From positions 1 to 37,614 of IMG/VR virus record IMGVR_UViG_3300010883_000136: DNA of 37,614 nucleotides, one strand, 5' to 3'. Below are positions 4,692 through 31,734 of this stretch, in pieces; the stretch's first letter is position 1, and the number at the start of each line of letters is the position of its first letter. This DNA comes from a virus. The position numbers and the translations under genes were made by a program. The notes under the pieces were generated by a model. It was not told the origin of the DNA and did not search any database. It was given only the letters and a program-made list of their open reading frames with translations.

Positions 4692-6335
4692 ATGACTATT
4701 AAAAGATACATAGCAGACGCTGACAACACTATCACTAATTCGTTTAAAGCGAATTTATCCACCCGAGCAACCGGTTCTAATATGGGCCTGTCGGACTCCG
4801 TAGAAGTCTTTTCTATTTTCGGCCAAGCCTCGGGAAGTACTGCGGGATACTCCCAGGAACTCTCCAGGATCTTGATGCAGTTCCCGATTAGCGATATTTC
4901 TACAGACAGAACAAATGGCATAATTCCAGAAAGCGGAAGTGTTTCTTTTTTCTTAAGAATGCATAACGCCAAACACCCATTTACAACTCCAACAAACTTT
5001 AATTTAGTTGTACACCCAGTTCGTGAATTGTGGGAAGAGGGTTATGGATTAGATATGGATGAGTACAAGGACCTCACCTATGATGGTTCCGGCTCAAACT
5101 GGCTACGCAGAGCAACAAGTTCCGCTGGCGTATTAAGTTGGTTAAAACCGGGCGGTACGCATTATGGCCATGAAAACCCTCCAACAACCTATACTGTAAA
5201 CTTTGCGAAGGGCACAGAAGACATGGAGGTTGATATCTCTGAATTGGTAGAGCAATGGATAAAAGGCTCTGGCGGTGGCGGTAAAACAAATTATGGAGTT
5301 TTGGTAAAACTTACCGGCTCTCAAGAAGGTTACTCAGCAGTCACAGGTGACTCAGAGATCGTGACAAATACAACTGGTTCAAAGACATCTTTCTATACAA
5401 AGAAATTCTTTGCCAGAGATAGTGAATACTTCTTTAAAAGACCATGCATTGAAGCAAGATTCGATGAGTCGACTAAGGATGACAGAGGAAACTTCTATTA
5501 TAGTAGTTCTTTAGCAACTGCTGACGCGAACACAAACACGTTGTATCTATACAACTATGTTAGAGGCAAATTGACCAACATACCTGGAGTTGCAACAGAC
5601 TATTCGGGAGAAGTATATGTTTCCTTTTTCTCGGGCAATGTAGATAACACTGCGATTTCGACCACTCACGGCCCAATACAACTAGTAAATACCACTGATT
5701 TTGTACAGTCAGGGAACCCACACTGTGTAACTGGTGGTTATGTGTCAACTGGTATTTATTCAGCCTCTATTGTGCTAACAGGTGCCGCAACGCCACTAAC
5801 AAGAATATACGATGTGTGGTTCACCGGAAGTTTGGATACAAGATCATCTGAAAAAAATGATGCGGTTCGTTTCCACACAGGTTCATATGATCCGAACACT
5901 CTTGATAGTTCTCCAATTTATAAAACGCCAACGTACTCAAGTAAGATAACAAACTTGAAGACAAACTATGGCCCGAATGAAAACACGAGGTTCAGACTTT
6001 TCGTCCGCGAAGTGGGAGAAGACTATAACATATATACCAAGGCCACGAATGAGATAGAAAACCTCATTGTAGAAGATGCGTACTACAGAATTTATAGAGT
6101 AACAGACGATCTAGAAATTATAAATTTTGGAACAGGTTCTCTAACCCCTGGCGCAGAAGAGGCAAAAACCGACTATACTAGATTGTCATTTGATGTCTCA
6201 GGAAATTACTTTGATTTCGATACTTCTCTTCTAGAGAGCGGATATTCTTACGGTATTAAGTTTGCATATTATGACGGAGAAGGATACTTAGAACAACCAG
6301 ATGTTTTCAAGTTTAGGATTGTAGATAAGACATGA
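4692..6335 (+). CDS. Structural protein with DNRLRE/CBM96-like beta-sandwich
   Basis: A 547-residue protein beginning 3 nt after the gp6 stop, without a strong Shine-Dalgarno of its own, so probably coupled to gp6. The first ~215 residues look like a DNRLRE-type carbohydrate-binding sandwich: ILMQFPISDI (a strand like the usual L-x-R-F-D-hydrophobic), then ELWEEGYG near residue 112, DMEVDISELVEQWIKG near 177-192, and NYGVLVKLTG near 198-207. The pattern tryptophan + acidic + G, then V-D-hydrophobic-S/T-x-L-V-x-x-W, then N-Y/W-G-hydrophobic, is the mark of that family. The remainder is beta-rich, Ser/Thr/Gly-rich and ends in an Ig-like stretch. A role as baseplate or fibre-base protein is inferred from position; surface-sugar binding is possible but not shown. 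Confidence 0.72.
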   Translation: MTIKRYIADADNTITNSFKANLSTRATGSNMGLSDSVEVFSIFGQASGSTAGYSQELSRILMQFPISDISTDRTNGIIPESGSVSFFLRMHNAKHPFTTPTNFNLVVHPVRELWEEGYGLDMDEYKDLTYDGSGSNWLRRATSSAGVLSWLKPGGTHYGHENPPTTYTVNFAKGTEDMEVDISELVEQWIKGSGGGGKTNYGVLVKLTGSQEGYSAVTGDSEIVTNTTGSKTSFYTKKFFARDSEYFFKRPCIEARFDESTKDDRGNFYYSSSLATADANTNTLYLYNYVRGKLTNIPGVATDYSGEVYVSFFSGNVDNTAISTTHGPIQLVNTTDFVQSGNPHCVTGGYVSTGIYSASIVLTGAATPLTRIYDVWFTGSLDTRSSEKNDAVRFHTGSYDPNTLDSSPIYKTPTYSSKITNLKTNYGPNENTRFRLFVREVGEDYNIYTKATNEIENLIVEDAYYRIYRVTDDLEIINFGTGSLTPGAEEAKTDYTRLSFDVSGNYFDFDTSLLESGYSYGIKFAYYDGEGYLEQPDVFKFRIVDKT

Positions 6336-9300
6336 GTTTAAAAGATCTATTCAAGCAAGGGAAGTCAAAAGTTCTTGTTGCGAAAAGCATTGAAGAAATC
6401 GGCACCGAAGCCGAGTCGGAAAGATATGTTTACGAAAGGTCAGAAGAAAGAAAAAGAACTATTCCACATATAGATTTTTCTAATCCAAAAAACTTTGCTA
6501 AATTTGGTTCAGCAGAAGAATATTATGCTCAGTCAATATCTAGAATCTACAACACTTATCCCTATGATGGGTCTCGTTACGAGAAACAAGCCTGGGAGAA
6601 TAGTTCTTCATACCTTGATCTCTATATCTTAGAAGAGTTGTATCCTAGAACAAACGGGTACGCCATCTTCTCCCCAGACAGTTCAGGAAACGGTTGGGGT
6701 AATAAATCTGCTACAATCGGCGCTTATGACAAATCTTCAGATTTAGAATATATTTTTCTAAAAGGTGGTCCAAACCCAAATCACGATGACACATCGGTTC
6801 AGAAAGCCTTTCCGAACATAGAAACTAGACGATCCGGTAATGTCGGCGCAAACCTACTTGACCTCTCGGTTAACAGGGAATCCAACTTAAAGTTTGACGG
6901 TGCTGAAGGTAACACAGTAGAGTTCTGGTTGAAGAAATCACAATTTTTGTCTGATATTAACGCTGGTGGTTATGAGGTAGTATTTGACTCTTATACAACA
7001 AGTAGTGTCTCTTCTTCTGTTAATTATGCACGTTTGAGAGTCGAGTTAACAGGAAACACATCTGCCTCACCATTCCGTGTCACATTCATGTCCGGTACAA
7101 ACGGCCTCCACAGAGAGACCATCGGTGATGTGACTACATCTTCTGTTGGAGACAACAACTGGCACCACTATGCGTTTGTTCTCAAAAATACTGGTTCTTT
7201 AGGCCCAGTTTCCAGCAATAAACCACCTGTTTCCCAGAACAACAGAAAAGATATCCAAATTGATTTTTATGTCGATGGTACCTATAACGCCACCGTCGTC
7301 ACAGGCTCTTCTATTGGCTATGTAAGCGGCGGAATGGTGGCTACCGTAGGTGCACTCGCTGCATCCCCTTCCGGAGCAGCAGGCGGCACTATAGAAGCAA
7401 ATATACCTACTTTTTCAAGCACTTCCGACATGCAGAAGATGAGAGGGTATGGTAAACTTTCAGGATCCCTAGACGAAGTAAGATTCTGGAAGGAAGAAAG
7501 AACAGCCAGACAAATTGGACTGAACTGGAAGAGCGCACTTGGAGCGGGGACAAACTTAGATGAAGCAAATACACAACTTGGAGTGTATTACAAATTTAAT
7601 GAAGGTATAACACAGACAGCAAGCGTAGACTCGAATGTTTTAGATTATGCCGGTAGAGTTACAAATGGTGATTGGGTAGGTTACGAAGCCGCCGCAAGAT
7701 CCACAAACTCAGCAATCGTTGAATCGAGTGCTTCTGCGGAAGAATTTAAAGATCCGATTGTATACTCTTTTCACCCTGATGTAAAAAGTCTTAAAGAAAG
7801 CAAGGAGTTAGAGGGTCGAGTATATGACTTTGAGAACCCCGGTGGCTTCTATCGAACATTCCCAGATTGGATGTTAGCAGAAGATTCTGAGACAGAAGAG
7901 GGACTTTTAAAACTAACCCAAATCATGTCAAGTTATTTTGACACCCTGTATCTTCAATTAAAACAATTACCGTCATTAAAAGACGTGCAATACGTAAGTT
8001 CCAGTATTGGAGCCACAGGAAGTTATAAACCTCTTCCTTTTTCAGAGAGAGTGTTAGAATCTAAAGGATTCTTGACATCCGAGATTTTTGCTGATGCAAC
8101 TATATTAGAGCAGTTCTTAGACAAGGACGATCATAAGTTGTTTACAGAAAAACTGTCAGATGTTAAAAATCTTATTTATCAGAATGTTCATAACAACTTG
8201 GTAAATATTTACAAAACAAAGGGTACTGAAAACGCATTTAGAAACTTTATTAGATGTTTTGGTGTTGATGATGAAGTAATTCAACTCAACGCTTATGCTA
8301 ACAATCAGGTATTTGAACTTAAAGACAATTATCGTTACCGTTCGGAAAGAAAGAATTACATCGATTTTAACACTTATGGCGATTCCGATGCTGTTGTGTA
8401 TCAGTTTAAGTCAGGTTCAAACAGTTCAGGGTTCATATCTGCATCGCAAGCATTGTTTTATGAGCACGGTACAGCCCAGACTTTTGAGTGTGAGGTAATT
8501 ACACCTAAGCCGACAGACCCCAGAGTTAAAAACGCTGCTTTTTATAACAGCCTAAACTCTTCTGTATTTGGAGTTCAACAAGTAAACTACAGTGCAAACG
8601 GTACTGTAAATGAGGCGGATACAAGTTTCGAATTGGTTGCTGCTGATGACTATGCGAACTTTCAAGTCTTTCTTGAGAGAGAAAATATTGGTTCAACAAC
8701 AGCAAAATTTGTTTTAACTGGCTCAAACGCTAGTGGTTTCACAAGTTTGACGAGTTCTCTCTATAGGGAAATGTACGACAACAGAAAGTGGAATTTGGCT
8801 GTAAGGGTTGTTCCAAATGGCCACCCATTTGTCAACACAGTTTCAGGCTCTACAGACAATAAAGGATACAAAGTTGAATTTTACGGCGTAAACTATGATG
8901 CGAACACTATTCGAGATAGTTTCTACTTAACCGCTTCTCTTGCCACGAAAACAGGAGATTCTGCACCACTCGACACAAGAGGGGATAATTTCTTAAAGAA
9001 CGGCAAAAGAATGTACGTCGGTGCTCTTAGGACAAACTTTACAGGTACACTGGTAAGCGGATCTGATTTAAAAGTGTCATCGACAAGAGCCTGGATGGAC
9101 TACATAACTAATGATGAGGTGAACGCACATGCGATTGACGCATCAAATATTGGTACACTCCACCCTTACCGTTCTGCCTATCTCTTTGAGAACTCTTCCT
9201 CCGCGCCACCGATATCAAAGGCATATCAAGGGAACAACCAATACGTTCCAGCAATGAAAACGCTTGCGCTTAATTGGGACTTTAAAACACTTACAGGTTC

Positions 9301-12300
9301 TTCTCCTGCTGGTACCTTCTCTGTGGTGGACTTTGCGTCTGGTTCAGCAGAAGACTTTGATAACTATCGCTGGTTAGGCAACATTGTTAATATGCAACAC
9401 CCCGGACAGGGAAAATATTTCAGAGCCAGTGAATCAAATGTTGTTGACACAAATTATGTGAATTCAGCAAAGCAACAAGAACCAGAATCCATCACTGGCC
9501 TTGACATGATTAACTCCTTGTCTCGTGATGATGTGCAGTTTACTAGAGAATCTCGCCCAATAAGTTACTATTTCATGCTTGAGAAAAGCATGTACAAGGC
9601 TATTACCGAGCAAATGCTTAATTTCTTTGCGACAGTAAAGGATTTCAATGATTTAATCGGAAGTCCAGTTAATCGTTACAGACAAGAATATAAATCTATG
9701 GAGAAGATCAGACAACTTTTCTTCGAAAGAGTAGACAACACTCCAGATTTAGATAAGTATATTGAGTATTATCGATGGCTTGACTCATCGATTGGTGAGA
9801 TGGCGGAACAATTGTACCCAGCATCAGCCGGTCATGCTCAAGGTTTGAAGACTATAATTGAGAGTCACGTATTAGAAAGAAACAAATATAGACATCAACT
9901 TCCATCAGTGGAACAGGCTAGAAATTATGACAGACTATTAACAGAAGAAGATCAGAGACTCCTGCAAATTCAACAGATGCAGGATGCTGCTTCTGGCGAG
10001 TACGGAACCCAACTTCAGCCACAAACTGCAAGCCCACTTAATATTAATAAATCTTTTAATTGGTGGAGCCTAAAGGCAGACCGTACAAACACTGCTGAGA
10101 TCACTTCAGGTGATGCCACAGTAGATAAGAATAGAGAACAAATACGAAGAGTTATAGCAAACGGGGAAACCCTTGCTCTAGGTGCCGCCTTCTATAGAAG
10201 AGGTACAAAACAAAGTTTAAACGATGAATATAACTCACCCTCGATTAAGGGAGCACCAGTTGTAAAGGTCACCACTGCTATAGCAGGAGGCTCGAACTCT
10301 TCCAGAGAAAGCAGTAATCAACTTATAAAGCCGGGTGTTGTTATAGAAGCAGGTTCGATAACATACCTCAGATCAGACCAAGTGCCAGACACTGATGATA
10401 TTACCGCAAACTCAACAAGATTCCCAAAGATTAAAGTACAACCTAAAATTAACGCTTTCGATGAATCGGAAGCAGAGAGTAGGCAAGTAAAGACGAGAGG
10501 TGGTCTTCCTTCTGTCTACAGTGGTAGTGCTGGACTGGTTTTCTCTAACGTACACCAATATGTTGCTCATGGCACGGAACAACCTATGCAAAGTCCTTTT
10601 GTAAAGAAATACGTTGGTGGCTATGGCGATAGAAGTGTTCCAATTAGTTCTGGATCACAAAACGAAAACTCAAGACTAGAAAGATTTAGAATATCCGCGC
10701 CCGCTAGTGATCTAGTTGCTTCAACTGCCGCTTCTTTGGCTGATATTTTAACATTAGCTGGCTTCAGCGATAATGATAAATTTACAGTTAACATACCCTC
10801 CGCCATGGGAGGCACCGGCACAGATATAACTATCAAAATGGTGGGTGGAACCCCATCAGACGCCACCTCGAACCAAGTAGAAATTAGCACAGCGGGAACC
10901 GCCGCCGCAATTCTTGCCCGATTTGTTATTGCTATTGCTGGAGGCACTCCGTCGCCCTCCACCTCTGTCGCATATGGAGCGGGATCCGGCGATGTAACTA
11001 ATGGTGTGGCAGGCATTACCGCCGCCCTCGGGACCAGCCCGACGCTAACTGTAACTGCAACTAATACGGGACGAGCAGGAAATGACATTATTTTCACAGA
11101 TGTTGTGGGAACAATGGTCGCTGGTGGATCCCACGGATCATCCCCGGCCTATCTGATCGGCGGCACCGGCGGCGATGTTTATATTTACCCCCCAACCAAG
11201 ACAAACGCCGGCGTTGAGAACTTACACTTGCCTCGTGCTGATATTAATCGAGGAACTCGACGACCTTACAATATTCGTAATATTCAACAATTAACAGCTT
11301 CCGCCTTACAAACATCGACGGTGCTCGGAAATTATGATGCAAATTATCAAGTTGTACAAACTTCCGGCAGAAGCGAGAACAACCTGTGGTTTTCTAAAAA
11401 CTCAGGTAGTGTTACCAGCACAACACCAGAGATATCATTTTTAAACAGTAACCTAGATTATGAATTACCAACTAGAACGGTTCATAAGTCGGTATTTGTA
11501 GAACGATTCTCTTCTCCTGGTGGGTTTGAAGCAAGTTCTCTGGGATATCTAGACCCACAAGCAGCTGAAAAGTCTGTTTATAATGCTTTGCCATTTAGAA
11601 ATTTAAGTGTTTTAAATGGTTCTGGAAGCTCGGATGGAAGCACAGTACCAGCAGAAAATGATACCAACGGTGCACACCTTAACATTTATAATAATATCCA
11701 TCCCGGTCTAGGTGATGGGTATAACGAATTATCCCGCCGTCACGCTGGCCAGTTTGGTATCGATAGTGTTTATGGCACCTTAGATGCAGATGGTTATGAA
11801 ACAACTGCTTCATACCAGAAACAACACAGAAACGTGAAAAGAATGATTAAGTATGCTGATGCAGCATTCGATGTACATGGAGACGATAGTTACCACACAA
11901 GTCGATATCTGACAGCCTCAGTTTACAACAATTTATTTTATAATGCGGCTATACCTCAAAGTGAATTGCAGTATGCATGGATTAGTGCCTCTTTAAGTAG
12001 CCCCGCAACACACCCTTTGATTGGTCACACCTCAGTTCAGAAAGGTTATGATGGTCAAGTGTCCGGAGCAAACGGGTACGAGGACGCTATTAACTTTATC
12101 GATGGGCAATTCCCACAGTACTCTGGCCTTCAGTCAGACCTTGCGGGAATGAATACTTTGGTATTAAATGTTCTGACTACAGGCAGCAACCTTTTGACAA
12201 CGGACACAGAGTATAGAAACACAGAACTCGCGACCGTTACAGACGGAGAGCAATTCAACGCTCTGATGAAACACCGTAATTCTAGGCAAGGTGCAAGTTG

Positions 12301-15300
12301 GAGATTGAATATGAAATCCGATCACCCTCTTGTACGCAACCAGAGAAATAATAACATCATTGATGTTGTCGAAATTAAGAGCGCGGCCAAGACAAATAGA
12401 GATGATGTTTCCAGTTTTGACAAAAATCAGAGTTTAAAGAAAGTTATAAAGACAGTTAAGAAGTTTACTGTCCCGCCCGTAACAAGTAAATTCAAACCAC
12501 TTACTCATGTGCTGAATGATCAGGGTGACGAAATATTATCAATCAAAGATACTTATTCCAACAATTTTGACTTTATGACAAACCCAGAACTTGATTCTAG
12601 GTTAGGAGTCAAACAAGAACAAAAACAAATTCATGATGTTATAATTAATGATGCTTCGGAAGACGGTGTAATTGTTGAAAGACTAGACTACAAAGAGACG
12701 GTGTATCCGAGAGAAGAAAATGCATATCTTGGAAAAGTAAGAGGTCGCATTACATTTACAGAAGGTAGCGGTAGTACAGACTTTAATAGAATCTTAGGAG
12801 AACAGGCGACTTTCTGGAGAGACAACCCGCATGATAGAAGAAGGCAGGATAACACAGCACGTAACTCACAAGGTATGTTGTTAGATCAATTTGCTGGCTC
12901 CTCCTCTGCAAACCCCAACACCACCTACCCTGCTGGTGATTACAACCAATCGCAGTTCTTCGCACCAGGCTTCTCATGCTGGCCCCTAGATGCACATTAC
13001 TTATCGAACTCCCATGGCGAAGGTTTAAAAAACTACTGGTATGACCCTGATGTCGCAACCGGTGGTGGAGACGCAACAATTCAAGCAAACGAGCCCCCAC
13101 AAGGCAATATTGCAAAAGCTCCTCAAGGAGAACTTCTTACTCTCAACATTGGAGAATTAATATACTCAATAAGCACTTCCGCATTCCCTGAAGGTGCACC
13201 CGCTTTCTATGGCTGGAGAGGCCCAGCAACGGCTTCTCAGAACTTCATTTACCCGAACACATTTAGTTATTATTCCGCCTCTGTTATTGCAGACCCAGAG
13301 TCGAGCGCCGCTAGTGCTAGGAAGAGTGGAACTAGCAGGCTTCTAACATACAACTTTTATAGAGCAGACAAAGATTCAGGTAATAAACCATTTCATGACT
13401 CGTATGAAGAGTATTCTTCCGACATCAGGGCACTTGCAAAAAACAGTACAGTGGTACCAGAATTCCGAGTGTCGGAGCACATAGATCATTACATCGATAA
13501 TAATTTTGGATTCAATAATCGATTTTTGACCCTTCAAGGGGCAAATAGCGACATTTCTGCCAGTGCAGAAACAGCGACAAGCGTTTATGAAGAGGACTTC
13601 TTTAAAGTATATTCCCATTCAGACTTTATGCAACAATTTGCAAAGTTTGATAAAGACGATAACGATATAACAAAAATAAAATTAAGTTGCCATGGCGTGA
13701 AAAAGTTACTACCATATAACGGTTTTTACCCAGCATTGCGAGCGGTACAACTTGGTAGTTTATTCTCTTCATCTTATGCACCATATATTTCAGGTTCTAA
13801 CTTTGCCCAAACCGGCTCAAACGAGGCCGAAAGACTTTCTACCTTGTTGCAGTCTTTCTTCGCACCAGGAATCATGTATAACACAATCAAATCCGGTATT
13901 GCCGTCGACTTCCCGGTTGTAACGGGATCAGCAGCATTTAGTGCTATCGATGGTTATGTAAACCCAGGATTAAAAGCAAACGCCAATAATACGATTAATC
14001 AAGCGGTGTATAACTACAGAATGCCATTCGAAGCACTAGTAGAGCCAGATAGGTATCTCCCGGTAAGAGCACCAGGAAGCACGACAAATGCCTTCGGTGA
14101 CGAGGGCACGGTTTCTTTTCTCTATCCTTTCTCTAGTGTGTTCACAAAAACACCTTTCTTTACTTGGAGCGGAGAGAGAAAACTAAACTATAATTTAGCC
14201 ATGAGCAACTTCTTATCCGAAGTGCCTAATTTCTTCTTATCAAATCAAAATTTTAAATCTTTTACTTCAAAACCTGAAAAACAATTTAAAACTATGAAGT
14301 CGGGATCAACCTATTATATGGATATTTCTCTTGCTAAAACTGATAATTTAATTATGGCACAGGGTCTTGAAGGCGTCCAGTTTAATGAAGTTACATCTAG
14401 TACTGATTCACGCTTACGTTTAAGAAACATGCATGGGCAGATATTTGGACCAGCCAGCGCATGGATGAATCAATATGGCGCTTGGCAACATCCAGATCTA
14501 GCCGACCCGACGTCGCTCTATCAGACCAAAGTTAATCAGACAGACCCTGCCTATGCACCCCACACTCCACCATACTATTATGCGGACTCTATCGCTAGAA
14601 TAGCATTCACACCACATGACCACACTGAATTAATTGAAGGAGAGAGTAAGTTTTTCACATTAGACGAAATTATAGCAGGGTGTAAAATAGAAACAGTTTA
14701 TACTTCTAGTGTTACACCACACTCAGAAACCTTGTTTGCGGCAGCACACTCAGGAAGTTACCTAGGTCAAACTGCTGCGAATCAGCAACTTCGAGGTCCA
14801 GCTGGCCTCGCTCAAATGAGACTTTCTTCGTCATTGAATTTGTTTGGAAAATCTAGTATAAAAACAGTAACTTATGATGTTGAAAGCCAGGATATTGAGG
14901 GATTTGTGGCAAGTAGTGCCCAGGATCCCCAAGATTCTTCAAACGACATCTGGACAATTAGTCCTAAATTTGAATGCCCCGTGGTAAACGTATCATCATC
15001 AACAGCCTTGGGTGAAGATTATTCATCTCTCAAAGAGGCTTCATTTGCGTATGGTTACCAGGCTGTCTTTGCTGATTTCGGATCCGGTTCTTCAGGCTTC
15101 GGCAATACTTCTGCGGTTAAAAGTGTTTGGGGTCAATATGGAACAATCCCAACTGGATCAGAAGGAGTGTTCATGAACATAAAAGAAAGTTTCCCAGAGA
15201 TTTTATTGAATACTATATCTGGCTCCAGCTCAGACGCTACCGGCTCTCTTATTGACATCTGCGGGTTTGAACAATCACAGAAAAGAATTGGAGAAATCGC

Positions 15301-15943
15301 TAGTACTAAAGAAATTTCAGAAGCGGTGGTGGCAATACCGTTTGTACAACGAAGAGGAAAAAGAAAGTTCTTTAAGTTGTTAAAATCTCAAATTGACTTC
15401 GCCCTAGGAAGAGCAACAAAGCAACAAACGATTTCTTTGGAAAAATCGGGCAAAACCCCCGGCTCTTCTATCTTGAATATGGTAGAAAGTCTTAAAAAAT
15501 ATGTCTTACCACCGCACATGGACTTTATGAAAAATAAGAAAGTCGATCCTTATGTCGCATATGTTTTTGAGTTCACTCACACATTAGATCAGGATGACTT
15601 GTCCAACATCTGGCAGAACCTGATGCCTAAAATTTCTCAAAAAGCAGAAGAGCAAGAAGTTTCCGTATCACACGGGCTAGGAAAAAATGAGTTCTTTGCA
15701 GGAAAGGAATTACCAGCGGAGACGCAATGGATGGTCTTCAAGATTAAAAGAAGAGCCGATTATAATTATTTTGCTAAAACAGCGGATTCAAGCGACGACA
15801 GCAGGTTCGCATTCCAGTTTGAAGCCGGAGGCGAAAAGAAAACTCCAGATTATAGTTATAACTGGCCATACGACTTTTTCTCTTTAGTCGAATTAGCATC
15901 GATTGACGCAGAAATAGAGTTTACAAAAAAGGAAAATTCATAG
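6332..15943 (+). CDS. Giant virion protein (3203 residues) with two LamG/ConA-like domains
   Basis: One uninterrupted frame of 3203 codons, starting in an ATGA overlap with the previous gene. Residues ~171-455 form a LamG-like fold (FDGAEGNTVEFWLKK, NNWHHYAFVLKN, IDFYVDGTYN, SGSLDEVRFW). Residues ~640-665 carry IYKTKGTENAFRNFIRCFG, a pattern seen in tail/baseplate proteins of the 'KGT...RCFG' kind. Residues ~710-955 look like a second, divergent ConA-like fold (KMYDNRKW-type strand, GKRMYVGALRTNF, TRAWMDYIT). A compositionally distinct block lies at ~1455-1615 (separate entry). Beyond it are YELPTRTVHKSVFVERFSS and YNALPFRNLSV, motifs I associate with giant structural proteins of marine phages. 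No enzyme motif or membrane segment is seen. It is probably a baseplate-periphery or fibre-network scaffold; the function is inferred. Confidence 0.85.
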   Translation: MSLKDLFKQGKSKVLVAKSIEEIGTEAESERYVYERSEERKRTIPHIDFSNPKNFAKFGSAEEYYAQSISRIYNTYPYDGSRYEKQAWENSSSYLDLYILEELYPRTNGYAIFSPDSSGNGWGNKSATIGAYDKSSDLEYIFLKGGPNPNHDDTSVQKAFPNIETRRSGNVGANLLDLSVNRESNLKFDGAEGNTVEFWLKKSQFLSDINAGGYEVVFDSYTTSSVSSSVNYARLRVELTGNTSASPFRVTFMSGTNGLHRETIGDVTTSSVGDNNWHHYAFVLKNTGSLGPVSSNKPPVSQNNRKDIQIDFYVDGTYNATVVTGSSIGYVSGGMVATVGALAASPSGAAGGTIEANIPTFSSTSDMQKMRGYGKLSGSLDEVRFWKEERTARQIGLNWKSALGAGTNLDEANTQLGVYYKFNEGITQTASVDSNVLDYAGRVTNGDWVGYEAAARSTNSAIVESSASAEEFKDPIVYSFHPDVKSLKESKELEGRVYDFENPGGFYRTFPDWMLAEDSETEEGLLKLTQIMSSYFDTLYLQLKQLPSLKDVQYVSSSIGATGSYKPLPFSERVLESKGFLTSEIFADATILEQFLDKDDHKLFTEKLSDVKNLIYQNVHNNLVNIYKTKGTENAFRNFIRCFGVDDEVIQLNAYANNQVFELKDNYRYRSERKNYIDFNTYGDSDAVVYQFKSGSNSSGFISASQALFYEHGTAQTFECEVITPKPTDPRVKNAAFYNSLNSSVFGVQQVNYSANGTVNEADTSFELVAADDYANFQVFLERENIGSTTAKFVLTGSNASGFTSLTSSLYREMYDNRKWNLAVRVVPNGHPFVNTVSGSTDNKGYKVEFYGVNYDANTIRDSFYLTASLATKTGDSAPLDTRGDNFLKNGKRMYVGALRTNFTGTLVSGSDLKVSSTRAWMDYITNDEVNAHAIDASNIGTLHPYRSAYLFENSSSAPPISKAYQGNNQYVPAMKTLALNWDFKTLTGSSPAGTFSVVDFASGSAEDFDNYRWLGNIVNMQHPGQGKYFRASESNVVDTNYVNSAKQQEPESITGLDMINSLSRDDVQFTRESRPISYYFMLEKSMYKAITEQMLNFFATVKDFNDLIGSPVNRYRQEYKSMEKIRQLFFERVDNTPDLDKYIEYYRWLDSSIGEMAEQLYPASAGHAQGLKTIIESHVLERNKYRHQLPSVEQARNYDRLLTEEDQRLLQIQQMQDAASGEYGTQLQPQTASPLNINKSFNWWSLKADRTNTAEITSGDATVDKNREQIRRVIANGETLALGAAFYRRGTKQSLNDEYNSPSIKGAPVVKVTTAIAGGSNSSRESSNQLIKPGVVIEAGSITYLRSDQVPDTDDITANSTRFPKIKVQPKINAFDESEAESRQVKTRGGLPSVYSGSAGLVFSNVHQYVAHGTEQPMQSPFVKKYVGGYGDRSVPISSGSQNENSRLERFRISAPASDLVASTAASLADILTLAGFSDNDKFTVNIPSAMGGTGTDITIKMVGGTPSDATSNQVEISTAGTAAAILARFVIAIAGGTPSPSTSVAYGAGSGDVTNGVAGITAALGTSPTLTVTATNTGRAGNDIIFTDVVGTMVAGGSHGSSPAYLIGGTGGDVYIYPPTKTNAGVENLHLPRADINRGTRRPYNIRNIQQLTASALQTSTVLGNYDANYQVVQTSGRSENNLWFSKNSGSVTSTTPEISFLNSNLDYELPTRTVHKSVFVERFSSPGGFEASSLGYLDPQAAEKSVYNALPFRNLSVLNGSGSSDGSTVPAENDTNGAHLNIYNNIHPGLGDGYNELSRRHAGQFGIDSVYGTLDADGYETTASYQKQHRNVKRMIKYADAAFDVHGDDSYHTSRYLTASVYNNLFYNAAIPQSELQYAWISASLSSPATHPLIGHTSVQKGYDGQVSGANGYEDAINFIDGQFPQYSGLQSDLAGMNTLVLNVLTTGSNLLTTDTEYRNTELATVTDGEQFNALMKHRNSRQGASWRLNMKSDHPLVRNQRNNNIIDVVEIKSAAKTNRDDVSSFDKNQSLKKVIKTVKKFTVPPVTSKFKPLTHVLNDQGDEILSIKDTYSNNFDFMTNPELDSRLGVKQEQKQIHDVIINDASEDGVIVERLDYKETVYPREENAYLGKVRGRITFTEGSGSTDFNRILGEQATFWRDNPHDRRRQDNTARNSQGMLLDQFAGSSSANPNTTYPAGDYNQSQFFAPGFSCWPLDAHYLSNSHGEGLKNYWYDPDVATGGGDATIQANEPPQGNIAKAPQGELLTLNIGELIYSISTSAFPEGAPAFYGWRGPATASQNFIYPNTFSYYSASVIADPESSAASARKSGTSRLLTYNFYRADKDSGNKPFHDSYEEYSSDIRALAKNSTVVPEFRVSEHIDHYIDNNFGFNNRFLTLQGANSDISASAETATSVYEEDFFKVYSHSDFMQQFAKFDKDDNDITKIKLSCHGVKKLLPYNGFYPALRAVQLGSLFSSSYAPYISGSNFAQTGSNEAERLSTLLQSFFAPGIMYNTIKSGIAVDFPVVTGSAAFSAIDGYVNPGLKANANNTINQAVYNYRMPFEALVEPDRYLPVRAPGSTTNAFGDEGTVSFLYPFSSVFTKTPFFTWSGERKLNYNLAMSNFLSEVPNFFLSNQNFKSFTSKPEKQFKTMKSGSTYYMDISLAKTDNLIMAQGLEGVQFNEVTSSTDSRLRLRNMHGQIFGPASAWMNQYGAWQHPDLADPTSLYQTKVNQTDPAYAPHTPPYYYADSIARIAFTPHDHTELIEGESKFFTLDEIIAGCKIETVYTSSVTPHSETLFAAAHSGSYLGQTAANQQLRGPAGLAQMRLSSSLNLFGKSSIKTVTYDVESQDIEGFVASSAQDPQDSSNDIWTISPKFECPVVNVSSSTALGEDYSSLKEASFAYGYQAVFADFGSGSSGFGNTSAVKSVWGQYGTIPTGSEGVFMNIKESFPEILLNTISGSSSDATGSLIDICGFEQSQKRIGEIASTKEISEAVVAIPFVQRRGKRKFFKLLKSQIDFALGRATKQQTISLEKSGKTPGSSILNMVESLKKYVLPPHMDFMKNKKVDPYVAYVFEFTHTLDQDDLSNIWQNLMPKISQKAEEQEVSVSHGLGKNEFFAGKELPAETQWMVFKIKRRADYNYFAKTADSSDDSRFAFQFEAGGEKKTPDYSYNWPYDFFSLVELASIDAEIEFTKKENS
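10690..11180 (+). other. GC-richer inserted domain inside the giant protein gene
   Basis: Within the 3203-codon frame this stretch (about residues 1455-1615; boundaries estimated by eye) changes character. Ala, Gly, Thr and Val dominate and codons become GC-ending (many gcc, ggc, acc), whereas the flanks are AT-rich with Asn, Lys, Ser and Tyr. The encoded pattern, FTVNIPSAMGGTGTDITIK, then a helix with AAAILARFVIAIAG, then LTVTATNTGRAGNDIIFTD, resembles a small repeat-type module (strand, A-rich helix, T-V-T-A-T-N-T-x-G-x-A-G-N) that I recall from assorted marine phage virion proteins. The frame is preserved on both sides. Best read as a horizontally acquired domain; the function is unknown. 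Confidence 0.6.
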
Positions 15944-27125: not shown

Positions 27126-27647
27126 ATGATATTGGGATTAGATATTTCAACTTCTATTGTGGGCGCAACGGTTCTTGACACAGATGGAGAAGTGGTTTAT
27201 TGTGAAGCATGGGATCTTCGCAACAAAAACAAATTTCCAAGTCTATATTCTAAAGCCGTATTTGTTAAAACGAAACTGTGGGAAGTTGATGACAATTTTG
27301 GTATAGATAAGATTTTTATTGAGCAATCATTAATGGCTTTTCGTTCTGGTTTTTCATCTGCAAAAACAATATTGACATTAGGTAAGTTTAATGGTATAGT
27401 GTCTTATATATGCGAGGACAATTTCGCATCACCAGAGTTCATCGGCGCTTCAACCGCAAGAAAGGCTTGTGGTATAAAAGTTGAAAAGGGAAAGAAGGCC
27501 AAAGAAACTGTTTTGAATTTTTTACTTGACAAAGAGGAATCTTTTAGTATAGAATATACAAAGCACGGCAATCCCAAACCCGGATCGTATGACCGTGCAG
27601 ACTCTTATATTATTGCGAAAGCAGGATGGAAAAGCACACAATCTTAA
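27126..27647 (+). CDS. ruvC: RuvC-like Holliday-junction resolvase
   Basis: 173 residues, the usual RuvC length. The RNase H-fold acidic set is visible: D6 in ILGLDISTS, E66 in IFIEQSLMAF, and D156/D159 in the C-terminal YDRADSYIIAKAGW, matching the D-E-D-D arrangement of RuvC (the last pair is D-x-x-D). The first strand with GLDxSTxxxGxxVLD is also typical. It would cleave four-way junctions made during recombination-dependent replication, so that branched DNA can be packaged. T4 itself uses the unrelated endonuclease VII (gp49), so this would be a functional replacement. The gene overlaps the primase gene by 22 nt. Specificity for junctions versus other branched DNA cannot be told from sequence. 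Confidence 0.88.
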   Translation: MILGLDISTSIVGATVLDTDGEVVYCEAWDLRNKNKFPSLYSKAVFVKTKLWEVDDNFGIDKIFIEQSLMAFRSGFSSAKTILTLGKFNGIVSYICEDNFASPEFIGASTARKACGIKVEKGKKAKETVLNFLLDKEESFSIEYTKHGNPKPGSYDRADSYIIAKAGWKSTQS

Positions 27648-28567
27648 AAGATATCCTTGGTAGACCGTTTATCACAAACGAAGAGCACCAATATTATTGC
27701 CCTTATTGTAAACATCATAAAAGAAAGATGTCAGTCAATATCGATAAGGACGTCTATAAATGTTGGATCTGCGATGTACATGGTCGGAAGATCCGAAGAA
27801 TCATAAAAAGGTTCGGAGACTATGAACAATTAAAAGAATGGGATCGACTCTCCGGAAAAGAAAACATTTTAGACTTTGATAAACTGTTTGAAAAGGTTAC
27901 ACAAGAAAGATCAAAAAAATACTTGACATTGCCAGAAGAATTTGTTACACTAACAGGTGACAATAAAAATCTATCTTCCATAAAAGTACTAAATTACTTA
28001 GAAAACAGAGATATTACAACAAAAGAAATCATAAAGTGGAAAATGGGCTATTGTTTACGCGGACAATATGAGGGAAGAGTCGTTGTACCCTCCTTTGGCC
28101 TTGATGGAAGAATCAACTACTTTGTCGCTCGAACCTTTACAGAAAACTGGAAAAAATATCTAAACCCATCAGTCGCAACTAGCGACATAATATTTAATCA
28201 TTTGTTTATAGACTGGAATGAAGACGTTGTTCTCGTAGAGGGAATCTTTGATGCTATCCGTGCAGGCGATAATGCTATCCCACTGCTAGGTTCGACGCTG
28301 CGTACCAACAGCGCGTTGTTTCAAGAGATAATCAAGAAAGACGCATCCGTTTTCGTTGCCCTAGACGAAGATGCAAAAAAGAAATCAACCAAGATCATTC
28401 ACACGCTTTTGTCTTACGGGGCAGAGGTTTTTTCAATCGACACATCCGGTCACGAGGATATCGGAAGTATGTCACAAAAAGAGTACAATTATAGAAAAAA
28501 GCACGCAACTCTTATCAATCAAGATACCTTTATGATAGAGAATGCTTTAAAATCTATAAAAATTTAG
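27626..28567 (+). CDS. Small DnaG-type DNA primase (zinc ribbon + TOPRIM)
   Basis: 313 residues. A four-cysteine zinc ribbon opens the protein: C25-P-Y-C28 and C46-W-I-C49, comparable to the CHC2 domain that reads template in DnaG-like primases. A TOPRIM core follows: E205 in VVLVEGIFDAIRAG and D247-E-D249 in VFVALDEDAKKK, the metal-binding glutamate and DxD pair. The middle (residues ~95-190) contains YLENRDITTKEIIKWKMGY and GRVVVPSFGLDGRINYFVAR, the usual primase core N-terminal features. There is no helicase domain, so it would work with a separate helicase as T4 gp61 does with gp41. The ATG lies inside the ruvC-like gene and the reading frames overlap by 22 nt. Its TAG is 8 nt before the next TTG start. 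Confidence 0.88.
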   Translation: MEKHTILKDILGRPFITNEEHQYYCPYCKHHKRKMSVNIDKDVYKCWICDVHGRKIRRIIKRFGDYEQLKEWDRLSGKENILDFDKLFEKVTQERSKKYLTLPEEFVTLTGDNKNLSSIKVLNYLENRDITTKEIIKWKMGYCLRGQYEGRVVVPSFGLDGRINYFVARTFTENWKKYLNPSVATSDIIFNHLFIDWNEDVVLVEGIFDAIRAGDNAIPLLGSTLRTNSALFQEIIKKDASVFVALDEDAKKKSTKIIHTLLSYGAEVFSIDTSGHEDIGSMSQKEYNYRKKHATLINQDTFMIENALKSIKI

Positions 28568-28575
28568 GAGAAGTT

Positions 28576-31500
28576 TTGAAATTTGCCCACATAGCCGATA
28601 CCCACATTAGGAATCTAAAGTATCACCCAGAGTACAGAGAGATATTTAGCAAGATTTTTAGTATTTTGAGAGAACAACAGGTGGACTGTATTGTTCACTG
28701 CGGTGACTTGGCTCACACAAAGACCCAGTTGAGCCCAGAATACTTCGATATGGCCCAGTGGTTCTTAAAAAACCTTGCGGACATCGCACCAACCTATGTT
28801 ATTCCAGGAAACCATGATGGAAACCTGAAGAATAGTAGCCGCCAAGACGCAATTACCCCAATTGCTGAGGCTTTGGCACACCCAAACTTGCATTTGTTGA
28901 AGGCGTCCGGCGAAACGAAGCTCAATGATCAGATATGTTTGAATGTTCTGTCTGTGTTTGATGAAGACAACTGGCATGAGCCAACAGATCTAGATATTAT
29001 TAACATCGCACTCCACCATGGATCGATTAGTGGTTGTAAAACCGACCAAAATTGGGTTATGGAGTATGGAGAACACGATATTTCTATATTTAAGGATTAT
29101 GATTACGTATTTTTGGGAGATATCCATAAAACAAATCAAATCTTGGACGATGACGGAAGAGTTAGATACCCAGGATCGACAGTTCAGCAGAATCATGGGG
29201 AAACTAACGACAAGGGCTTTCTTGTTTGGGACATTCAGGACAAAACTACGTTTTCATGCGAGCATTTTGCGATTCCCAACCCCCGACCGTTTATTACTGT
29301 ACAGTTGACGCCGAAAGGTAAGCTCCCTCGGAATGCAAAGGTACCGGAAAACGCACGTCTTCGTGTTGTTTCGCGTAATAATCTACCTTTAAACGTATTA
29401 AAGAAGGCCGTAGAAGTAGCAAAGACAAAGTTCCACCCGGAGTCAGTTACTTTTGTTAACAAGGCCACCGGCAATCGAGGAAATGTTGAGAATTTAACAA
29501 GTAACTTACAAAAAGAGGACCTTCGAGACATAGGAATCCAGGAAAAGTTCATTTGTCAGTATCTTAAAGACTATGAACCAACAGAAGAAGCCTTAGAGAA
29601 GGTTTTAGATTTAAATAAACGCTACAACAGTATTGTTGAAGAGGGCGAAGACGTAATTCGTAACGTTAACTGGAAAATTGAGTCAGTTGAATGGGATAAC
29701 CTGTTCAATTATGGAGAAAACAACAAAATAAACTTTGAAAACTTGGAAGGCATCGTTGGTGTCTTCGGAAAGAATTATTCTGGTAAAAGTTCGGTCATTG
29801 ATTCAATATTATACACGATGTTCGATAAAACTTCGAAGAATAATCGTAAAAACCTTGATGTTATCAACCAAAACAAGGATTTTTGCAAAGGAGTGGTCAA
29901 AATTTCGATTGACAACAACTTGTACACTGTTGAGAGGAGATCGGAGAAGTATCTTCGTACTCTTCACGGCAAGACGACGGAAGAAGCAAAGACGAATGTT
30001 GAATTTAGCAAAAAAAATACTGTTACGGGAGTTGAAGAAGAACTAAACGGTCTTACAAGACAGGATACAGATAAAAACATCCGAAAAGTGTTTGGTACAT
30101 TCGAAGATTTCCTTTTAACATCAATGGCATCTCAGATTGACTCCCTTTCTTATATTAAAGAGGGGTCCGTCAAGAGAAAGGAGATTCTAGCGAAGTTTCT
30201 TGACTTAGAAATCTTTGATAAGAAATATAAGTTAGCGAAAGAAGAAGGGCAAGAGTTAAGATCTGCAATCAAGCGTCTCGAAGAGAAAGAGTTCGACACA
30301 GAGATCACAGAAGCCAAAGAAAACCTAGAAGAGAATCATGATCTGACTAAGCAAAAGAAAAAAGAGTGTAATAGCACAAAGAAGAAGATTGAGAAGTGCA
30401 ACACAAAGTTGATAGAGATTGACAAAAAGATTGATTCTATCCCCGCTCAGATTATTAATTGTGATGAGGTAAGAGAACAACTTGAGTCGAAACAAGAGCA
30501 GGTTAAAAATATTAACAAAACCAGCAGTGCCTTGGAAGAGAAGATTGCAAAGCATAAAGAGTTTTTGGAAAAAGTCGATACGCTTAAGAACGTGTTTAAC
30601 ATCGATGAGTGTATAGAAAAAAGACAAATTATTGTCGAACACAAAAAAGAACTCGAAAGGATCCATGGAGAGATCTCTTACAAAAACAAAGAGCAAGATG
30701 ATCTTAATCAGAGGATTAATTTGCTGGAAGAGGTACCATGCGGAAGCGAGTTCTCACACTGCAAGTTTATTAAGAACGCCTATGATGCATCAGAGCAAGT
30801 GGATATCGTTGCACAAGTAATTAAACAACTGGAGACTGAATCAGACAAAATTAATAACGATATTCTAGACTTAGACCCAGAAACAGTGGATGACTATATT
30901 GAAAAGTATAAGGACGTTACTGAGAAGGAACAAGGAATTAAGCAAGAAGTTTCAGACTTATTCTTGACGATTGAAAAGAACAAGAGTGTAATCGTACAGG
31001 TCCAGACAGAGATTGAGATTCTCACTGCACAGTTGGCAGAGTATGAGAAAAACCGAGAGGCCATCGAAAACCTGGAAAAACTCATTAAAGAAAAGAGAGA
31101 GTTAAATACTAAGATTAAAGACAGCAATTTGATTCTCGGAGGCAGCGAGAAAGAGCTACTGCAACTTCACAAGACCCACGGATCACTAGAGCAACAACTA
31201 CAGAATCTCCAGGACCAACAGGAAGAGTTGGACTCCTTGCGTCAAGATTACGCAGCATATGACCTCTATGAGAAGTGCATGAGATCGAAGGACGGAATCC
31301 CATATGATATCATTAAAAACAAGTTACCAGTCATTAATGAAGAGATTTCCAAGATTCTATCTAACATTGTTGAATTTGACATCTTCTTTGAGACGAGCGA
31401 CAAGAAACTGGAAATCTATATTAAGCACTCTAAGTATGGTCCACGGCCCATTGAGCTTGGTTCTGGTGCTGAAAAGACTATTGCTGCCATGGCTATTAGG

Positions 31501-31734
31501 CTTTCGTTACTTAGCGTATCAAACCTCCCCAAGGCAGATCTATTTGTACTTGATGAACCAGGAACATCCCTCGACGAAGACAACATGGAAGGATTTATCA
31601 GAATCTTAACAGACATGATAAAAACACAATTTAAAGCGGTACTTCTTATTTCACATCTTGATAGTTTAAAAGACTGTGTTGATACAACTATTGAGATTGA
31701 TAAGAGAGACGGATTAGCGCACATCAGCCAATAA
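28576..31734 (+). CDS. sbcDC: Fused SbcD-SbcC (Mre11-Rad50, T4 gp47-gp46) recombination nuclease
   Basis: 1052 residues from a TTG start preceded by TTTAGGAG. The N-terminal ~370 residues are an SbcD/Mre11 phosphoesterase: D8-T-H10, G43-D-L-A-H47, G78-NHD81, L-H147-H148-G-S and G181-D-I-H184 are the metal-ligand motifs. The remainder is an SbcC/Rad50 ATPase: Walker A G398-KNYSGKSS, a long coiled coil, a hook with C722-x6-C729, signature ELGSGAEK (960-967), Walker B LFVLDEP (989-995) and H-loop LLISH1027. In T4 the two are separate genes that resect ends for recombination; here both halves lie in one frame with no stop between. The junction, around residues 340-380, contains the helical Rad50-binding tail of the nuclease. 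All catalytic residues appear intact. Confidence 0.95.
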   Translation: MKFAHIADTHIRNLKYHPEYREIFSKIFSILREQQVDCIVHCGDLAHTKTQLSPEYFDMAQWFLKNLADIAPTYVIPGNHDGNLKNSSRQDAITPIAEALAHPNLHLLKASGETKLNDQICLNVLSVFDEDNWHEPTDLDIINIALHHGSISGCKTDQNWVMEYGEHDISIFKDYDYVFLGDIHKTNQILDDDGRVRYPGSTVQQNHGETNDKGFLVWDIQDKTTFSCEHFAIPNPRPFITVQLTPKGKLPRNAKVPENARLRVVSRNNLPLNVLKKAVEVAKTKFHPESVTFVNKATGNRGNVENLTSNLQKEDLRDIGIQEKFICQYLKDYEPTEEALEKVLDLNKRYNSIVEEGEDVIRNVNWKIESVEWDNLFNYGENNKINFENLEGIVGVFGKNYSGKSSVIDSILYTMFDKTSKNNRKNLDVINQNKDFCKGVVKISIDNNLYTVERRSEKYLRTLHGKTTEEAKTNVEFSKKNTVTGVEEELNGLTRQDTDKNIRKVFGTFEDFLLTSMASQIDSLSYIKEGSVKRKEILAKFLDLEIFDKKYKLAKEEGQELRSAIKRLEEKEFDTEITEAKENLEENHDLTKQKKKECNSTKKKIEKCNTKLIEIDKKIDSIPAQIINCDEVREQLESKQEQVKNINKTSSALEEKIAKHKEFLEKVDTLKNVFNIDECIEKRQIIVEHKKELERIHGEISYKNKEQDDLNQRINLLEEVPCGSEFSHCKFIKNAYDASEQVDIVAQVIKQLETESDKINNDILDLDPETVDDYIEKYKDVTEKEQGIKQEVSDLFLTIEKNKSVIVQVQTEIEILTAQLAEYEKNREAIENLEKLIKEKRELNTKIKDSNLILGGSEKELLQLHKTHGSLEQQLQNLQDQQEELDSLRQDYAAYDLYEKCMRSKDGIPYDIIKNKLPVINEEISKILSNIVEFDIFFETSDKKLEIYIKHSKYGPRPIELGSGAEKTIAAMAIRLSLLSVSNLPKADLFVLDEPGTSLDEDNMEGFIRILTDMIKTQFKAVLLISHLDSLKDCVDTTIEIDKRDGLAHISQ

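Follow-up and report, generated by a model that had tools for sequence, protein, structure and literature searches.

The open reading frame at positions 28576..31734 of the window (the whole stretch of DNA analysed, a 37.6 kb IMG/VR virus record) raises the question of whether an SbcD/Mre11-type nuclease and an SbcC/Rad50-type ATPase are truly made as one polypeptide here, and whether such an arrangement is as rare as a sequence-only reading of this DNA had implied. The gene lies on the plus strand, as do its parts and the two conserved neighbours described below; it starts with TTG, 5 nt behind a Shine-Dalgarno-like AGGAG (28566..28570), and runs without interruption through 1052 codons. In the 1052-aa protein, Pfam finds Metallophos at residues 1–185 (E 1e-13) and AAA_23 at residues 374–607 (E 1e-10), and PHROG finds an SbcD-like match at residues 1–281 (E 4e-36) and an SbcC-like match (E 1e-54). 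Both families are thus matched significantly within one open frame, nuclease first, bearing out the proposal that the two enzymes share a single chain. The window also bears baseplate wedge and tail-fibre-like genes, which point to a myovirus as its source; amid the tail genes, as a separate observation, lies a 3203-aa protein (6332..15943) without a PHROG match. It is very likely that the product of 28576..31734 is a single-chain Mre11–Rad50 (SbcDC) of a marine myovirus, of the same kind as Mimivirus R555.

The predicted model of the protein (mean pLDDT 77.8, pTM 0.45) places the nuclease and capping domains up to about residue 296, coiled-coil helices at 545–715 and 730–902 with a tip at 722–729 between them, and a C-lobe at 908–1052. 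The nuclease and capping domains (aa 1–296, 28576..29463), assigned by Pfam, PHROG and structural match, resemble S. aureus SbcD in the predicted structure (7dog_B; Z 24.4, rmsd 3.8, 276 aligned). The ATPase half follows the Rad50/SbcC plan: a coiled coil divides the head, which bears the Walker A, Walker B, signature and H-loop motifs. Its predicted structure matches M. jannaschii Rad50 (3av0_B; Z 30.1, rmsd 5.1, 352 aligned) and E. coli SbcC (7yzo_D; Z 29.9, rmsd 3.4, 352 aligned). The N-lobe of the head (aa 366–545, 29671..30210; Pfam, predicted structure and structural match) contains Walker A, GKNYSGKS (aa 398–405, 29767..29790), located in an alignment of 48 sequences, and is followed by the predicted helices of the ascending arm (aa 545–715, 30208..30720) and the descending arm (aa 730–902, 30763..31281). 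The C-lobe (aa 908–1052, 31297..31731; alignment and structural match) carries the signature LGSGAEK (961–967), the Walker B residues DE (993–994) and the H-loop histidine H1027. All the Rad50 motifs that had been claimed are therefore present, and they are invariant in the 48 aligned homologues.

The tip of the arms departs from the canonical form. A CXXC zinc hook is absent from the arm tip of the 1052-aa protein, where the two cysteines are spaced CX6C (C722 and C729, 30739..30762). Cysteine spacing varies inside this one family: among 107 homologues it is mostly CX6C, but 11 have CX7C and about 15 have CXXC. CXXC is the spacing in the other phages examined, Mel-JY01 and T4 among them. With such unusual spacing, zinc-dependent dimerisation through the hook is not assured. 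A search of the literature by title and abstract, which gives weak evidence of absence, found no paper on phage CX6C hooks.

The most immediate doubt about the single frame, that an assembly or sequencing error merged adjacent gp47-like and gp46-like genes, draws on the fact that T4 and cyanophages have both genes close together and in the same order. A scan of viral contigs, however, returned 57 loci, and a second scan using the alignment returned at least 578 relatives. Of 107 distinct full-length sequences from many metagenomes (the window's own counted), most are 49–60% identical to the window protein and the closest up to 80%, and every one of the 107 is fused and open throughout. Isolated or annotated phages also carry the fusion as a single gene. 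Given these independent contigs, we reject an assembly error, the probability of which is practically nil: the fusion is real, not a product of chance, and common to a large group of ocean phages. The junction itself is equally uniform. In the nuclease half, a putative Rad50-binding domain (aa 319–357, 29530..29646), recognised as a helix-loop-helix from DSSP of the predicted model and the alignment, has helices at 319–333 and 337–357; it precedes a linker of 8 residues (aa 358–365, 29647..29670), whose length is constant in the aligned homologues, and the first Rad50 strand begins at residue 366. The expectation of a Rad50-binding helix at the junction agrees with this arrangement. A stop or frameshift there, named in the sequence-only reading as an outcome that would speak against fusion, was not found: the junction has zero stops, frameshifts and indels in the 48 aligned homologues, and the spacing from RNxxW to WDNLFNY is identical in 100 of the 100 sequences in which the pattern was found. 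A fused frame might still yield separate subunits if translation also began internally, or if a protease cut the chain at the junction, given that the linker connects domains that are distinct proteins elsewhere. Against internal initiation, the homologues share no start codon at the junction that is preceded by a ribosome-binding site, and the sole start codon in the window between residues 325 and 400 is a TTG at residue 390, which lies inside the ATPase fold and has no evident ribosome site. We accordingly reject an internal start yielding a free Rad50 half, for which there is no conserved candidate, and regard the production of separate subunits by either route as very improbable. From these junction sequences, only the fused product would be expected, and a stoichiometry of the two halves fixed at 1:1 is plausible; the tether may also constrain how the head opens, as the sequence-only reading proposed.

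A further question, with the fused chain taken as the product, is whether its nuclease half is still a nuclease. The sequence-only reading had credited the protein with all five Mre11-type motifs; the residues that it named (D8, H10, D44, N79–H80–D81, H148 and H184) do stand at their positions, but motif V is GDxH and the ligand set is incomplete. Motif V reads GDIH (aa 181–184, 29116..29127) and aligns with GHIH of P. furiosus Mre11 (1ii7), so that Asp182 replaces the first His of GHxH at the position of P. furiosus H206; T4 gp47 likewise has His there. Six of the seven canonical ligands (P. furiosus D8, H10, D49, N84, H173, H206 and H208) are hence present. The named catalytic residues of both halves are invariant across the 48 aligned homologues, except for H147, which is Tyr in 92% of them; Asp182 is likewise invariant, and LGDIH occurs in 106 of the 107 full-length homologues. 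Because motif V is without one canonical metal ligand, catalysis may differ or be weaker, and it could be argued from Asp182 that the His-to-Asp change cost strong nuclease activity, leaving the nuclease half chiefly to bind DNA or to act as a scaffold for the ATPase. Asp, however, is able to bind metal, all the other ligands are retained in the alignment, and the change is fixed rather than drifting, which suggests retained function; we thus hold such a loss to be highly unlikely. Nor is the substitution strictly tied to fusion. Motif V is GHxH in 7 of 7 split phage proteins examined, and the fused proteins of XacN1, PAU and Carin-5 carry GHxH as well, so that the tie is loose and a strict one is rejected.

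The fusion sits in a conserved module consisting of a RuvC-like nuclease, a DnaG-like primase and the fusion itself. Directly upstream lie the primase (27626..28567; PHROG 47, E 2e-36), found at 100 of 103 homologous loci, and the RuvC-like resolvase (27126..27647; PHROG 159, E 7e-8), found at 99 of 103; both neighbours occur together in 99 of the 103 loci. The window primase matches primases of Staphylococcus, Enterococcus, Listeria and Bacillus phages. Across 14 contigs of 119–204 kb, no SbcC/SbcD match except the fusion is substantial, and weak additional ones occur in 2 of the 14 contigs and in Mel-JY01; we reject the idea that the phage has another SbcC/SbcD pair, encoded by separate genes, at a different place, as these extra matches are weak and confined to few records. 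We also reject a bacterial fusion in the genome collection, where the strong matches are no good evidence of a cellular gene; they comprise a contig also present among the viral contigs, as judged by equal length and match, a short contig and a phage stretch in a WOR-3 MAG. In the last of these, the chromosome CP070664.1, runs of N join a piece of phage sequence that carries the gene in truncated form, probably a scaffolding artefact.

By homology with SbcCD and with T4 gp46/47, the role of the latter being taken from PMC3175470, the fusion is most likely an ATP-gated enzyme that resects DNA ends in support of recombination-dependent replication of the phage. A dimer would probably be joined at three places: at the Rad50 heads, which would engage in an ATP-dependent manner, at the Mre11 dimer interface and, by the cysteine hook, at the tips of the arms. 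The head would be closed by ATP binding; with a DNA end bound and ATP hydrolysed, the nuclease could then trim ends. The resulting 3' single strands would serve recombination-dependent replication and repair, and the enzyme would perhaps also process hairpins or branched DNA jointly with the adjoining RuvC-like nuclease. The linker, short and constant in length, may set the helix-loop-helix beside the coiled-coil root of the same chain, and on this ground every nuclease probably works in cis with the ATPase of its own chain. For the T. maritima complex, 9–12 residues were calculated to be needed for the roughly 28 Å from the Mre11 end to the Rad50 start (PMC3175470); the linker at 358–365 comes near this estimate, which makes cis docking the simplest reading. 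Such docking is not visible in the predicted model, whose cross-domain confidence is low. It is possible, although rather doubtful, that the marine clade as a whole represents a natural single-chain Mre11–Rad50 with a GDxH site and a CX6C/CX7C hook (CXXC in some members), acting strictly in cis and with a hook that may not be a classical zinc hook.

The implied rarity of the fusion does not hold. Essentially all close relatives are fused, and such fusions were published in 2011 by Yoshida, Claverie and Ogata (PMC3175470), who reported them in Mimivirus R555, a Bacillus phage, plasmids, bacteria and eukaryotes; a fusion nearly universal among relatives and already described is what the sequence-only reading had named as telling against it. 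The same study made the same structural argument about the junction helix, noted that R555 has Asp where P. furiosus has His206, and described abundant homologues of the fusion in marine metagenomes, probably of phage origin and with Herelleviridae-type primases nearby. No further description of such fusions was found in the literature of open-licence papers. The fusion is therefore already described in kind, and the differences at the metal site and the hook are the sole fresh points, modest ones, that at the metal site having been noted for R555. In 2011 the ocean fusions were confirmed just from a few metagenome sequences, none of which spanned the whole protein (PMC3175470); full-length phage-encoded examples are now available, and they support the suggestion in that study that many marine fusion genes belong to phages. 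A single-chain 1:1 enzyme could be a convenient model for structural work on Mre11–Rad50, and the changes in the hook and metal site offer simple testable hypotheses.

Among annotated phages, a single fused gene is found in Mel-JY01, pT24, PTm1, PAU, MA9V-1, phiLo, Carin-5, phiXF1 and XacN1. In a tree of 24 proteins, the window protein groups with Mel-JY01, LR756501, an interrupted copy in LR756508 and the Tenacibaculum-type phages, and XacN1 falls among the T4-type split proteins. The tree requires three changes between the fused and split states, one of them being the LR756508 interruption; the number of fusion origins is uncertain because several placements are on long branches, and the result is in line with the 2011 proposal that fusion recurred (PMC3175470). 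Phage LR756508 is rejected as a split relative, its nuclease half being interrupted. The interruption (L003:5665-6582) is a 305-aa ORF that breaks the nuclease half after motif V and may encode a homing endonuclease; Rfam shows no intron there.

It is worth comparing the window protein with the known systems at increasing distance. The phages of Microcystis (Mel-JY01), Tenacibaculum (pT24 and PTm1), Sphingomonas (PAU) and Chryseobacterium (MA9V-1) have a single two-domain gene and lie on the window's side of the tree; Mel-JY01 is about 30% identical to the window protein, pT24 is 29% identical over the first 210 residues, both have a CXXC hook, and PAU differs by GHxH in motif V. Mimivirus R555, by its published description, resembles the window protein in several respects: the nuclease precedes the ATPase, a helix-loop-helix and a short linker lie between them, motif V has Asp for His, and the distribution is viral and aquatic. 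GOS scaffolds with R555 homologues carry Herelleviridae-like primase genes, as does the window; R555 is longer (1351 aa versus 1052 aa), and the window hook is CX6C. A specific kinship with R555 is possible: the motif V change is common to both proteins, and giant viruses supply the leading hits in the search of predicted viral structures, whose best matches are long proteins labelled 'DNA repair exonuclease' from giant viruses and Tenacibaculum phages. The split proteins, T4 gp47/gp46 and SbcD/SbcC of Kyanoviridae and Herelleviridae, belong to the same two enzyme families with the nuclease gene first, but they are encoded by two genes, have GHxH and a CXXC hook, and are distant from the window protein on the tree. 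The cellular SbcCD/Mre11–Rad50 enzymes (E. coli, T. maritima and M. jannaschii) share both folds and the ATPase motifs, and their coiled-coil arms are generally longer; unlike the fusion of the window, they consist of two polypeptides and retain the canonical GHxH.
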